Below are positions 54,896 through 60,370 of a DNA stretch of 64,000 nucleotides, piece after piece (position 1 is the first letter of the stretch; each line of letters starts with the position of its first letter). The stretch is from Bifidobacterium asteroides DSM 20089 (GTDB lineage Bacteria; Actinomycetota; Actinomycetes; Actinomycetales; Bifidobacteriaceae), in NCBI RefSeq assembly GCF_002715865.1, contig NZ_CP017696.1:1364001-1428000 (forward strand), read 5' to 3'. Both the position numbers and the translations under genes were made by a program. The notes below the pieces were generated by a model that saw only the letters and a list, made by a program, of their open reading frames with translations, did no database searches and was not told where the DNA came from.

Positions 54896-55034
54896 ACACT
54901 CCCCTTTCCACGGGAAATCCCTCCATGGGCCGGTGCATACGAACCCACCAATCCCCGTCATAATAAGACAAGGGCCGAAGCATGGGCAAGGCGTGGGGGT
55001 CGCCGCATGTCATTGCAAACGGTACAGTGGGGGT

Positions 55035-55322
55035 ATGAAGCTGGCTCCCATTTTCGACCCGGCCGCCCGCAGACCATCTCCTCGGCCCGTGCAGGTGGAT
55101 CTGCGACGAATCTTCCTGCTAGGCACTGGGGCATGGATTCTGGCCCTTGCCGTGGTGGGCATCCTGGCCCTGACCGGAATGACGGTCACCAAGCCCCTTA
55201 TTGTCTGCCTGTCCGGGGTTGGCGTGGGCATCCTGCTAATGATATGGGAGCATTTCAATCGTTGGGATTATCGCCGTCTTGCCCAACAACCGGATCCTGA
55301 GCCAGAGGAAGCATCAGCGTAA
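55035..55322 (+). CDS. DUF2530-like small membrane protein
   Basis: A 95-residue protein with two hydrophobic segments (about 29-48 and 55-72), flanked by VDLRRIFLLGTGAWILALAVV and a cytoplasmic FNRWDYRRL motif. The composition and length match actinobacterial DUF2530. Its 3' end overlaps the end of senX3 on the opposite strand by 68 bases. GTGGGGG lies just before the ATG. Function unknown. Confidence 0.75.
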   Translation: MKLAPIFDPAARRPSPRPVQVDLRRIFLLGTGAWILALAVVGILALTGMTVTKPLIVCLSGVGVGILLMIWEHFNRWDYRRLAQQPDPEPEEASA

Positions 55323-56505
55323 AGGTGCTCCCCTCCCCCGGCGCACTCCAGACCGTGACCGAGCCATGGTGGGTCAGGGCTACATGCTTGACGATGGCCA
55401 GCCCCAGACCGATGCCTACGGCAGTCTCTTCATTCTGATTGTCGGCGCGGTAGAAGCGCTCGAAGATCCTGTCCTGGTCAACCTTGGATATGCCTCGGCC
55501 GTGGTCGACCACCCTGATTTTTGCGTAGTGCCCGTCATTGGAGGACTGTGCCACCAGGGAGACAGTGGATCCGGAAGATGAGTATGAGATAGCGTTCTCC
55601 ACCAGCTTGGCCAGAGCCACTTCGATCTGTTGCCCGTCGCCGTGAATCGTCAGTGGCTGGTCGCATCGCCATCGCAGGGCCACATGGGCCCGATCAGCTC
55701 TACCCTGCTCATCCTGCACCACTGCCCGTATCTGCTCAGCCACGTCAAGCACGTTCTCCCTGCTAGGCTTGATCCGCTCCTGAGCCCGGATCAGCAGAAG
55801 AAGATCCTTGAGCACATGCCCCAGATAGGCACTGTAACGCTGAACCGAAGAGGCATCCTTGGAGACGCTGCGCAGGTGGTTGCGAAGCAGTTCTGGGTCA
55901 TCCCCCTCCAGGAGGGAGGTGGTTTTCAGCTGCGCCGCCAGCTCCTCCAGGGCCTGAACCGGCTTGAGCATCTGCTCGGATACATTGGTCATGAAAGCGT
56001 CCCTGGTCCGAACGAACCTGACCGAATCGCTCACATCATCGATAAGCACGACGACCAGGGACTCGTCGATACGCCCAAGAGTGATCTTGAGCCAGTTCCG
56101 TCTGGATACCGCCTGGGCCTGAACATGGGTAGCGTCCCCAGGATCTTTGGTCTCGTCAATATCCCAATCATCGGATTCCGTGCTCTCGGCTGCGGTATCC
56201 AGAGCGAATTCGGTGGGCGTTCGCGTAATCAGATTAAAGCTGCGCCGACCGCCCGAATGCCGTACCTGCGTGATGGCTTCCATGATCTTCGGATCCACAA
56301 TCTCGTCGTTGCTGACGATTCCCAGCCTGTAGGCATCCGGACTGGAACGAACAACTTCGTCATCGCCATCGACCACAACCGTGGCGGCGGGGATAACCGC
56401 CAGCAAGGCCTGGGTCGAGCCCTCCAAAGCCTCGCCGTCGGCCTGTTCACCATCCTTGCCCCGGTTGCCTACAAGTCTGCGTAGGCAATCCATGAACCGT
56501 CTCAT
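55255..56505 (-). CDS. senX3: SenX3-like sensor kinase lacking the phosphoacceptor histidine
   Basis: A 416-residue protein with a PAS-like N domain (ALLAVIPAATVVVDGDDEVVRSS), no membrane segments, a DHp region and an HATPase domain. The ATPase is intact: N box LVENAISYSSSG, G1 DHGRGISKVDQDRIFERFYR, G2 TAVGIGLGLAIVKHVALTHHG. The H box, however, reads FMTNVSEQMLKPVQAL where SenX3 has FxxNVSHELKTPVxAL, so the His is Glu177 (codon GAG at 55977-55975). I chose ATG 56505 after GGAGGG. No response regulator is adjacent. It is divergent from phoU. Confidence 0.85.
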   Translation of the reverse strand: MRRFMDCLRRLVGNRGKDGEQADGEALEGSTQALLAVIPAATVVVDGDDEVVRSSPDAYRLGIVSNDEIVDPKIMEAITQVRHSGGRRSFNLITRTPTEFALDTAAESTESDDWDIDETKDPGDATHVQAQAVSRRNWLKITLGRIDESLVVVLIDDVSDSVRFVRTRDAFMTNVSEQMLKPVQALEELAAQLKTTSLLEGDDPELLRNHLRSVSKDASSVQRYSAYLGHVLKDLLLLIRAQERIKPSRENVLDVAEQIRAVVQDEQGRADRAHVALRWRCDQPLTIHGDGQQIEVALAKLVENAISYSSSGSTVSLVAQSSNDGHYAKIRVVDHGRGISKVDQDRIFERFYRADNQNEETAVGIGLGLAIVKHVALTHHGSVTVWSAPGEGSTFTLMLPLAQDPVVGQDGDNPND

Positions 56506-56705
56506 AAAGACTTCCCTCCAGTCCGGCGCCGACCCCGGACGCTGCGACATCAGCCGAGTCTCATCGGCAGTTCCGGCTTCATTCTCGCATATCCGACAGT
56601 GATTGCCGCCCCAAGAGCCGACATTCTTCGATGCTGGCTTTTTCTTGCCACCTTGGTCACATAGACTGTAGTCATATCGTTGACCGAGGCCGAAAGGGAA
56701 GAACA

Positions 56706-57383
56706 ATGCGCGTGATTTTCAACGAGGAGCTGGGGCTGGTGGCCGACGATCTCGATCGGATGGCCGCCAAGGTTCGCGATGCCATCAAAAAAGCCGGAAG
56801 ATCCCTGATGGACTGCGATGTGGAGACGGCCCAGGAGGTCATCGACGGGGATGCCGACATAGACGACCTCCAGGCCAGCATCATCGATCAATGCATCAGA
56901 CTCCTGGCAAAACAGAGCCCCGTGGCCACTGATCTACGAGTGGTGGTCTCCACACTGAGCCTGTCGGCCACCTTCGAACGCATGGGAGACCTGGCCAGGC
57001 ACATCGCCGAGACGGCAAGGCGCTCCTACCCCGAGCCGACCCTGCCCTCCGAGGTCATCCCACTATTCAAACAGATGCAGAACTTCCTGGATGTCATGGC
57101 CGACCGCCTGGTCGAGATGCTCTCCGACAGAGACACGACCATAGCCGAGCAAATCATCTTCAGCGACGACCAGATGGACAAGCTCCATCAGCAGACATTC
57201 GGCTACGCCCTATCAGACGACTGGAAAGGAACCAGACAGCAGCTGATCGACCTGGTCCTGGTGGCACGGTTCATGGAGCGTCTGGGAGACCATGGCGTCT
57301 CGGCGGCCCGGCGCGTGGTCTACATCGTCTCGGGCTTCGACCCCTCCAAGGATCCAAAGGATCTCGACCTCGATCTGGACTGA
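56706..57383 (+). CDS. phoU: Phosphate signalling complex protein PhoU
   Basis: A 225-residue PhoU with two three-helix bundles. The metal-binding E/DxxxD motifs appear as DGDADIDDLQASIIDQ in repeat 1 and SDDQMDKLHQQTFGY in repeat 2. It normally connects the Pst transporter to the SenX3/PhoR kinase. AAAGGGAAG lies before ATG 56706. It is divergent from senX3 and convergent with gpmA. No pst genes are in the window. Confidence 0.94.
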   Translation: MRVIFNEELGLVADDLDRMAAKVRDAIKKAGRSLMDCDVETAQEVIDGDADIDDLQASIIDQCIRLLAKQSPVATDLRVVVSTLSLSATFERMGDLARHIAETARRSYPEPTLPSEVIPLFKQMQNFLDVMADRLVEMLSDRDTTIAEQIIFSDDQMDKLHQQTFGYALSDDWKGTRQQLIDLVLVARFMERLGDHGVSAARRVVYIVSGFDPSKDPKDLDLDLD

Positions 57384-57572: not shown

Positions 57573-58313
57573 TCACTTCTGGCCCTGGGCCGCCACAGCA
57601 GCAGCACCGGCTGCGGCTGCCTCCGGATCCAGGTACTCGCCGCGAGGCTTGACGGGCTTGAAGTTCTCGTCAAGCTCATAGACCAGGGGAATGGCCGTGG
57701 GGATGTTGACCTTGGCGATCTCATCCTCAGTCAGGTTGTCGAGCATCTTGACGATGGCCCTCAGAGAGTTGCCATGGGCGGCAATCAGGACGGTCTTGCC
57801 GGTCTTGAGCTCCGGGACAATGTCGCTCTCCCAGTAGGGGGTCACGCGCTTGACCACGTTGGCCAGTGCCTCGGCACGGGGCACGGGGGCTCCTGCATAT
57901 CGAGGATCATGGGACTGCGAGTATTCGTCGTCAGGGTCGATCTCGGGCGGCGGGGTGGCATAGGAACGACGCCAGAGCATGAACTTCTCGTCGCCGTACT
58001 TCTCGCGAATCTCGGTCTTGTTCTTGCCCTGCAGGGCTCCGTAGTGACGCTCGTTCAGCCTCCAGTCACGCTTGACGGGAATCCAGAGACGGTCGGCCTC
58101 GTCCAAGGCGATGTTGGCGGTGTTGATGGCGCGGCGAAGCAGGGATGTGAAGACGATGTCGGGCAGAACACCCTTATCCTTGAGCAGCTTGCCGCCCTTG
58201 CGTGCCTCCTGCTCGCCCTGCTCGGTCAGTGGGACGTCCACCCAGCCGGTGAACTGATTGGTGTTGTTCCATGCGCTCTGGCCGTGCCTGAGCAATACTA
58301 GTTTGTAGGTCAT
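57573..58313 (-). CDS. gpmA: Phosphoglycerate mutase, 2,3-BPG dependent
   Basis: A 246-residue dPGM interconverting 3- and 2-phosphoglycerate in lower glycolysis. The phosphohistidine is in [23 protein letters not shown], with [16 protein letters not shown] and [15 protein letters not shown] also present. The Ala-rich tail ([15 protein letters not shown]) extends past the usual end. No Shine-Dalgarno is seen before the ATG. It is located opposite phoU, as in many actinobacteria. Confidence 0.97.
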
Positions 58314-58375: not shown

Positions 58376-59323
58376 TTAAAGCAGACAGACACCCAGCCAG
58401 CAGAACCCTGTCAGCAAATCGGTATAACCCGACAGCGCAAAGGCCCTGCTGAAGCGGTTTCGACTACTGGCCACTGTGGTCGCAACGGCCATCGCCAGAA
58501 TAGGCAGCAGGCAGAGCAGACGAGGCCAGACGACTGCAAGGGAACCATTTGAAAGGGACCACGACTCGACGACGCCCAGAATCACGGCCAGGGCATAGCA
58601 GGACCCCATCAGAATCAAGGTGCCTCTGGCTCCGATAAAGGAAGACAGCGTGTACTTGCCGGCCAACGGGTCCGCATCAATGTCGCGATAGTTGTTGATC
58701 TCCAGAACGGGAATGCAGATAAGACCGCCAACCAGGGCGCCGATGAACCCGTGACGGTCGACACCGCCGGTCTCCAGGTACTGGGTGGCCAGCACGCCCA
58801 CCAGGCCAAAGAAGATCATAATGCTCAGCTCGCCCATGGCCCTATAACCGTAAGGGTGTTTGCCTCCCGTGTAGAACCAGGCTCCCAGCAGGCAGAAGAC
58901 ACCGACCATGATCATCCACCAGTGGCCAGTCACCCCGCACAGGATCAGACCGGACAGGCAGGCCATAAGGATGTTGAGATAGGCAGACAGCAGGACCTTC
59001 CGAGGCTCCACCCCACCGGCCACCCCTCGTCTGGGCAAATCAGGCACCGCCCCATCAGCGCCAGCGCCTGAAAGGCTGCTCCGGCCCTCGTCGGTACCCC
59101 TTATTCCGTCAAAATAGTCATTGGCCAGATTGCAGGTACTGTGGATGAATACAGCCGTCAGACAGCATAAGAGAGCAATCAGCCAGAAGCGCGCATCCGG
59201 CCCCGACCCTTGGCTGAGCAGCTGCCGGAGGGCCGCCGCCGTGCCGATCAGAACCGGCGTGGGCGAGCAGAGCAAGGCCGAGGGTCGCAGTGCGTCCTTG
59301 TATTCCCGAAGTGTGATGAACAT
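58376..59323 (-). CDS. UbiA-family prenyltransferase, MenA-like paralogue 2
   Basis: A 315-residue membrane prenyltransferase with about eight hydrophobic segments. Both Asp-rich metal/prenyl-diphosphate motifs are intact: NLANDYFDGIRGTDEGR and NNYRDIDADPLAGKYTL. The pattern with HPYGYRAMGELSIMIFFGLVGV is MenA (1,4-dihydroxy-2-naphthoate prenyltransferase). ATG 59323 is preferred although its ribosome site is weak. It follows directly after a paralogous gene, with which it shares long blocks. No other men gene is present. Confidence 0.88.
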   Translation of the reverse strand: MFITLREYKDALRPSALLCSPTPVLIGTAAALRQLLSQGSGPDARFWLIALLCCLTAVFIHSTCNLANDYFDGIRGTDEGRSSLSGAGADGAVPDLPRRGVAGGVEPRKVLLSAYLNILMACLSGLILCGVTGHWWMIMVGVFCLLGAWFYTGGKHPYGYRAMGELSIMIFFGLVGVLATQYLETGGVDRHGFIGALVGGLICIPVLEINNYRDIDADPLAGKYTLSSFIGARGTLILMGSCYALAVILGVVESWSLSNGSLAVVWPRLLCLLPILAMAVATTVASSRNRFSRAFALSGYTDLLTGFCWLGVCLL

Positions 59324-59389
59324 GATTGCCTGATTATCCACCAAATCGCTTGAAGGCCGGTCTGCTCTCTTATGAGAGTATCAAGATTT

Positions 59390-60370
59390 TCACAGCTGCA
59401 GGAGCAGACCAGCCGACCAGCACAGGGCAGAGACCAGGGTGCCCTTGCCTGCCATGCCAAAGGCCTTGGGCACCTGGCCACGGGCAAAGGTTCGACAGAT
59501 CAGCAGGAAGACAGCGGCCACTGGCAGCAGGATCAGCACAAGAGGAAAGCCCGGCAGGCCATGTCGCATGACAGCCGGAACGAACTGGATCAGGCCCAGG
59601 ACCAGGCTCAGGATGTAGACCAGGTAGATGGAGATGGCTGCTGCCCGCGCCCCCACCAGAACCGCAAATGTGTGTTTGCCGGCAAGGCGGTCGTCGTCCA
59701 GGTCCCGATAATTGTTGAGCATGAGCAGGCCCACGGCGTTGAGCCCGCAGACGCAGGCACCCAGGATGCCAGTAGCATCGACCCTGTTAATGAGAAAGTA
59801 CTCGGTTCCCAGGGTGGCCACCAGACCGAAGAAGATGAAGACGCTGACCTCACCCAGTCCGTGGTAGCCGTACGGATGCGGGCCGCCCACGTAACACCAG
59901 CCGGCAATCAGGCAGCAGATCCCGACCAGGATCATCCACCAGTGACCGGTCAATGCCATGACAACCAGACCCATCAGGCAGGTGAAGGCCGCCGAGATCA
60001 TGGTGGCGTACAGCACCTTCCTGGGCGGCACACCGGCGGCGACCAGACGTCTGGGCCTGCCGGAGGTGGCTTCCTCGCCGCCTCGGCCTGAGTCAGTTCC
60101 GCGAACACCATCGGCATAGTCATTGGCGAAGTTGGCTGCGATCTGCATAGACAGGGCGAGCAAGACCAGCAAGACCACGATCAGGGCCAGCCGTCCCGGC
60201 GTGGTCGCCTTCAGGTCAGGGTCGACAGGCGTGGGCGAGCAGGAGCTGGTGCACTGTTCCAGCAGCCGTGACCGCTTCAAGAGTGCAGCTGAAGCGCCCA
60301 CGCAGACAGGCGCCACCGAGGCAGGCAGCGTCCGGGGACGCATGCCATCCATCCAAAGCCTGATATTCAT
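59390..60370 (-). CDS. menA: UbiA-family prenyltransferase, MenA-like paralogue 1
   Basis: A 326-residue MenA-type enzyme that would attach a polyprenyl chain to 1,4-dihydroxy-2-naphthoate in menaquinone synthesis. The Asp motifs are NFANDYADGVRGTDSGRG and NNYRDLDDDRLAGKHTF, with GPHPYGYHGLGEVSVFIFFGLVATL between. AAGGGAGGG precedes the ATG. It lies 35 bases after lysS on the same strand and 67 bases before the second paralogue, so the three may be cotranscribed. Confidence 0.88.
   Translation of the reverse strand: MNIRLWMDGMRPRTLPASVAPVCVGASAALLKRSRLLEQCTSSCSPTPVDPDLKATTPGRLALIVVLLVLLALSMQIAANFANDYADGVRGTDSGRGGEEATSGRPRRLVAAGVPPRKVLYATMISAAFTCLMGLVVMALTGHWWMILVGICCLIAGWCYVGGPHPYGYHGLGEVSVFIFFGLVATLGTEYFLINRVDATGILGACVCGLNAVGLLMLNNYRDLDDDRLAGKHTFAVLVGARAAAISIYLVYILSLVLGLIQFVPAVMRHGLPGFPLVLILLPVAAVFLLICRTFARGQVPKAFGMAGKGTLVSALCWSAGLLLQL

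Follow-up and report, generated by a model that had tools for sequence, protein, structure and literature searches.

PhoU is thought elsewhere to bind PhoR/SenX3. Well-studied pseudo-histidine kinases are, to our knowledge, few, and DivL of Caulobacter is the model. In DivL, which has several PAS domains, the phosphoacceptor site is occupied by Tyr or, in one species, by Ala; the N box is kept according to the authors, and the protein has a role in cell-cycle control (PMC4211667). A second case is the ChrS pseudokinase of Corynebacterium glutamicum, a laboratory-evolved form in which a frameshift truncates the CA domain and the His is still present (PMC9491836). For SenX3 of M. smegmatis, phosphate sensing was reported to need the PAS domain but not the membrane anchor, and PhoU1 together with phosphate shifted SenX3 to the phosphatase mode in vitro; an association of PhoU with the SenX3 PAS domain was proposed by the same authors (PMC12301784). 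In B. longum FGSZY16M3, senX3-regX3 correspond to peg.664-665 and the pst genes to peg.666-669 (PMC7917626).

The gene described here, from Bifidobacterium asteroides DSM 20089, shares with SenX3 and the actinobacterial PhoR the PAS-DHp-CA order, the phoU-gpm neighbourhood and the grouping in a tree, but it lacks the phosphoacceptor His, the H+1 Glu and the H+4 Thr, carries Lys in place of the first N-box Asn and has no adjoining response regulator. Within the genus of the window (the whole stretch of 64,000 nucleotides that was analysed) it also lacks the N-terminal membrane helix. It resembles DivL in its histidine kinase fold, in the replaced phosphoacceptor, in the conservation of this state among relatives and in the histidine kinase boxes that are largely kept, whereas DivL comes from a different phylum and has a different origin. 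With ChrS, the likeness is to an inactive histidine kinase of Actinobacteria that has its signalling effect via a paralogue. Bifidobacterium PhoRP (SenX3-RegX3) contains a related kinase from the same bacterial family; this kinase has the His, adjoins phoP and is a paralogue of the pseudokinase. A preliminary description had presented the gene as a SenX3-type kinase with Glu in place of its phosphoacceptor. That interpretation as a whole is partly supported, and the find goes further than first stated, since the pseudo-histidine kinase is family-wide and linked to PhoU and Pst. An ATP-sensing scaffold, one of the roles suggested in that description, is still a candidate.

The SenX3/PhoR-like gene was located at 55255..56505 on the minus strand, to which the coordinates of all its parts refer, and encodes 416 amino acids (stop codon included in the coordinates), as judged from the sequence and from orthologues. 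Its ATG start codon occupies 56503-56505. A Shine-Dalgarno-like GGAGG was read at 56515..56519, nine bases 5′ of the ATG; it supports this start and hence the absence of an N-terminal membrane helix from the protein of the window. In an AlphaFold model (mean pLDDT 79, pTM 0.60), a PAS-like domain comprises residues 28-157 (56035..56424), a DHp-like two-helix domain residues 159-240 (55786..56031) and the CA (HATPase_c) domain residues 250-402 (55300..55758). The PAS-like assignment also draws on structural alignment with PAS-DHp-CA kinases, among them 4i5s, which matched residues 28-402 of the model with a Z of 20.1 (312 aligned residues, rmsd 6.9). The CA domain was in addition recognised by Pfam, with 83.6 bits for HATPase_c. 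No Pfam match to HisKA was obtained for the protein, and the four matches to PF00512 in the genome of the window do not include this gene. In an alignment of 32 pseudokinases, HATPase_c was found in 32/32 and HisKA in 13/32, the latter weakly (best E 0.0024).

The phosphoacceptor position is occupied by Glu177 (codon 55975..55977), as the preliminary description had read it; 55975-55992 gives M-T-N-V-S-E, and its gap-free alignment to the H-box pattern FxxNVS-H-ELKTPxxAL holds. To place this residue in context, 146 orthologues from Bifidobacteriaceae were compared with 53 true SenX3/PhoR kinases, 11 of them His-type bifidobacterial kinases and 42 the best (L080-L121) of 79 non-bifidobacterial actinobacterial loci, the lower-ranked 37 being left out. 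The names SenX3, RegX3, PhoR and PhoP of the reference genes are labels taken from gene order and organism. At site 177 the orthologues carry Glu (117), Gln (13), Arg (7), Asp (3), Val (2), Thr (2) or Asn (2) and in no case His, which all 53 true kinases have in this column. Chance, a sequencing error or an oddity of the strain was ruled out, as the proposed alignment of homologues gave His in 0/27 genomes of the genus and 0/146 of the family. A phosphomimetic function of Glu177 was also considered and is unlikely with Arg, Gln, Val, Thr and Asn at this site in other members. With seven different residues (E, Q, R, D, V, T, N) found at site 177, Glu itself is not what matters.

Three further catalytic residues are replaced. 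The H+1 and H+4 residues define the HisKA phosphatase motif, and the first N-box Asn is catalytic. Gln178 (55972..55974) stands in place of the H+1 Glu, with Gln in 137/146 pseudokinases versus Glu in 53/53 true kinases, and Lys181 (55963..55965) replaces the H+4 Thr, which is found in 1/146 versus 53/53. Lys300 (55606..55608) takes the place of the first N-box Asn; this residue is Lys in 142 pseudokinases, Arg in two, Glu in one and Cys in one, and Asn in all 53 true kinases (consensus H and N boxes, including the N box NLhxNAh, as given in PMC2688746). With the phosphoacceptor and these three residues lost, the protein is expected to act neither as a kinase nor as a phosphatase of the usual HisKA type, and the catalytic death of the family, as predicted from these alignments, is well supported. 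The phosphatase role suggested in the preliminary description is accordingly disfavoured. Kinase-negative, phosphatase-positive histidine kinase mutants do exist, such as EnvZ.N347D, but a SenX3 relic that acts solely as a phosphatase on a response regulator appears highly improbable with H+1 and H+4 lost and with the SenX3-type regulator absent from a third of the genomes.

Other parts of the ATP-binding domain are conserved. The second N-box Asn (Asn304, 55594..55596), the G1 box D334-x-G-x-G338 (55492..55506) and the G2 box G364-x-G-L-G-L369 (55399..55416) are kept, as is the F box, and Asn304, Asp334, Gly336, Gly338, Arg350, Arg353 and Gly366 are found in 146/146 pseudokinases. The earlier statement that the N, G1 and G2 boxes are intact is thus right for G1, G2 and the second Asn of the N box but wrong for its first Asn. 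A nucleotide may still fit the CA pocket. These retained boxes are also what would be expected of an unusual kinase that phosphorylates another residue, either another His or the Glu itself. An alternative His in the DHp domain was considered. Position 230, on the second DHp helix, carries His in 122/146, which speaks for such a kinase, but R, K or L in the other 24; no DHp His is invariant. Since site 177 in addition drifts over seven residues and all 146 pseudokinases lack the first N-box Asn, we consider such a kinase very unlikely.

The gene is under constraint and is not a pseudogene, as had been claimed. In a simple Nei-Gojobori calculation on 66 pairs from 12 close genomes (the shorter L015 was omitted), dN/dS was 0.115 for the whole protein, 0.161 for the N-terminus with the PAS domain, 0.087 for the CA domain and 0.050 for the DHp domain (residues 161-245). 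The most constrained stretch measured was the H-box helix itself, residues 170-190, with a value of 0.005. Trp138 (56092..56094) is Trp in 146/146 pseudokinases versus 1/11 His-type bifidobacterial and 2/42 actinobacterial true kinases. A decaying gene without function would agree with the clean loss of the gene in one clade (seven genomes opened, see below) and with L265, the one row among 146 that has a stop or an N inside residues 30-400. However, residues 30-400 are free of stop codons in the other 145 rows, there are invariant residues such as Trp138, and the dN/dS value refutes decay for the close relatives of the window, which leaves this explanation next to no credence. Judged from the alignments, the loss of the phosphoacceptor is old and has been kept under selection.

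To determine the range of the family, 189 Bifidobacteriaceae genomes were searched at E 1e-20, and 150 gave a match, including 27/27 in the genus of the window; one named carrier is B. simiiventris, whose contig L079 was excluded from the counts as the same gene as G115. The 146 aligned genomes are these 150 without the divergent genes of genus g10 (G167-G169) and the G184 fragment, which were set apart. An even sample of 393 other genomes of the class gave no second family member, the next best match scoring 246.7 versus 547.5 bits. As far as searched, the family is confined to Bifidobacteriaceae, and it is seemingly undescribed; no printed description of the gene was found within the literature searched. 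A tree was built from 64 proteins. All 28 pseudokinases sampled for it fell into a single clade (100/100) with a long stem, and the 11 His-type bifidobacterial kinases into a separate one (100/98). The two clades group together with moderate support (83/92). The tree and the phoU-gpm neighbourhood place the pseudokinase in the SenX3/PhoR family by descent. We classify it as a pseudo-histidine kinase, that is, a protein with a modelled histidine kinase fold, without the catalytic phosphoacceptor and under purifying selection, whose inactivity is predicted. To annotate the gene as a SenX3/PhoR 'sensor histidine kinase' would be misleading. The family adds an independent case of a pseudo-histidine kinase across many genomes.

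A very divergent kinase-like gene adjoining phoU was also observed in genus g10 (L280-L282, fragmentary genomes of about 1 Mb). The His site of this gene reads Leu, Gln or Lys, but both N-box Asn residues are kept, and it may represent either an earlier stage or an independent loss. Due to its very long branch it was kept apart from the family counts.

The surroundings of the gene point to phosphate control. phoU (56706..57383, plus strand, identified by Pfam) is divergent from the pseudokinase gene in 56/56 loci examined. It is followed by a gene at 57573..58313 (minus strand) that we take to be gpm (phosphoglycerate mutase) by family resemblance, part of the actinobacterial phoU/senX3 neighbourhood. 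On the other side, a small membrane protein gene at 54933..55322 (plus strand), weakly DUF2530-like and under the Pfam cut-off, converges on the 3′ end of the pseudokinase gene, also in 56/56 loci. The usual place of the kinase in other Actinobacteria is between gpm/phoU and regX3/phoP; in Bifidobacteriaceae this place is held by the pseudokinase. In one genome (G116; L259 and L277), the pseudokinase gene and phoU lie on different contigs with gpm still beside phoU, an apparent rearrangement. phoU and pstC are present in 146/146 pseudokinase genomes and PhoP in 96/146 (raw counts, uncorrected for relatedness); both the phoU neighbourhood and the co-occurrence with phoU and pstC are partly inherited. 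The His-type bifidobacterial kinase adjoins phoP in the 10 loci opened, and phoP is near pstC in many cases, as it is in B. longum FGSZY16M3 (PMC7917626). The simplest account of the origin is a duplication after which the working pair was relocated next to pst and the catalytic residues were lost in the copy on the phoU side.

The preliminary description had also remarked on the missing regX3 neighbour and proposed a search of the whole genome for it. RegX3/PhoP adjoins the pseudokinase gene in 0/56 loci, and no orthologue was found anywhere in the genome of the window (G000) at E 1e-60. This genome has 13 receiver-domain matches, none of which is the bifidobacterial PhoP at 1e-60; the most RegX3/PhoP-like receiver genes in the opened regions (11 of the 13 matches) show 42-44% identity, versus 61-65% for bifidobacterial PhoPs. 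More broadly, 50/146 pseudokinase genomes are without PhoP, among them 21/27 in the genus of the window, all at least 98% complete. Gene presence and absence sets were compiled by hand from search listings.

These counts bear on the possibility that the pseudokinase modulates the His-type kinase, the true PhoR/SenX3, by forming heterodimers with it or by titrating it. Nearly all PhoP-bearing genomes, 96/97, carry the pseudokinase, and the 97th (G184) has a fragment at a contig end; the two proteins also group together in the tree. There is a precedent in Corynebacterium, where the laboratory-evolved ChrS pseudokinase is thought to promote signalling via its paralogue HrrS (PMC9491836). Partnership of this kind is possible where PhoR exists, but it leaves the 50 PhoP-less genomes unexplained. 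If the partner kinase of the earlier suggestion is taken to be PhoR/SenX3, partnership cannot be the only role. We regard this explanation as improbable.

Two groups of genomes show how the gene behaves relative to phoU and pst. In genus g8 (L070:911-6413 and L071:5120-10406), the pseudokinase gene, pstS, a fused pstC-pstA and pstB follow one another on the same strand, apparently as a single operon that diverges from phoU; the Pfam check of these pst genes covered L070. In the g5 clade, phoU and pstC are kept and the pseudokinase gene is gone. In the seven opened genomes of this clade (L269-L274, L276), the small membrane gene and phoU are separated by a clean gap, and no PhoP was found at 1e-60. 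The clean absence of the pseudokinase indicates that PhoU can do without it there. Most genomes hold the His-type paralogue as well as the pseudokinase, which allows comparison, and the lineages that lack either the paralogue or the pseudokinase serve as natural experiments. This makes it directly testable whether PhoU has outputs besides a two-component kinase.

The N-terminal membrane helix was assessed by hydropathy with start codons applied. It was found in 0/27 genomes of the window's genus and in 109/119 elsewhere in the family. A soluble form as a general trait of the family was considered and rejected, as the helix is missing only in the 27/27 of the genus and in 10/119 others. Sensing by SenX3 of M. 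smegmatis without a membrane anchor fits the loss of the helix in this genus.

The features that can be read from the sequences are the loss of four catalytic residues, purifying selection, linkage to phoU and pst, and persistence without PhoP. Members of the family have probably taken on another role in the control of phosphate. The reading that we favour, at slightly less than an even chance, is that the pseudo-histidine kinase has become an adaptor which binds a nucleotide and serves PhoU/Pst phosphate control. In this mechanism, a copy of the phosphate-sensing kinase SenX3/PhoR would have stayed at the old phoU-gpm locus and become the pseudokinase, in whose action phosphotransfer most likely plays no part. 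PhoU would be bound by the PAS and CA parts, and the CA domain would have kept its capacity to hold a nucleotide by way of Asn304 and the G1 and G2 boxes. The state of binding would then be transmitted along the conserved DHp helices to a partner, probably PhoU/Pst itself, and the pseudokinase would tune phosphate uptake or titrate PhoU, with a presumed effect on Pst. The retained PAS and CA domains, the adjacent phoU and the loss of the helix in the genus fit a PhoU-binding adaptor, by analogy with the mycobacterial system. A more specific version, which we hold to be doubtful, is a non-phosphorylating, nucleotide-gated adaptor that links PhoU directly to Pst, provides phosphate control where PhoR-PhoP has been lost, and is fixed in the nucleotide-bound state by the Lys of the N box.

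The strongest constraint is found in the DHp helix, not in the PAS or CA domain, and this could point to a response-regulator-like partner instead. Docking through the conserved DHp helix is the strongest rival to the adaptor: as in DivL, a response regulator, phosphorylated or not, would dock on the DHp surface, and the pseudokinase would relay its state to another protein. DivL binds DivK~P without kinase or phosphatase activity (PMC4211667), and its structure 4q20 is among the better fold matches to the model of the pseudokinase (Z 22.9, 207 aligned residues, rmsd 3.6). The extreme constraint on the H-box helix also speaks for this role. On the other hand, the gene has no RegX3/PhoP beside it at any of the 56 loci, and 50 of the 146 genomes lack the SenX3-type regulator. 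With no linked or universal RegX3/PhoP, only a conserved regulator encoded elsewhere in the genome could serve as the docking partner, and we consider this sensor unlikely.

Beyond the putative gpm gene, the window contains two genes at 58376-59344 and 59390-60370 (minus strand), which look like tandem MenA/UbiA-like prenyltransferase genes and were named by eye.
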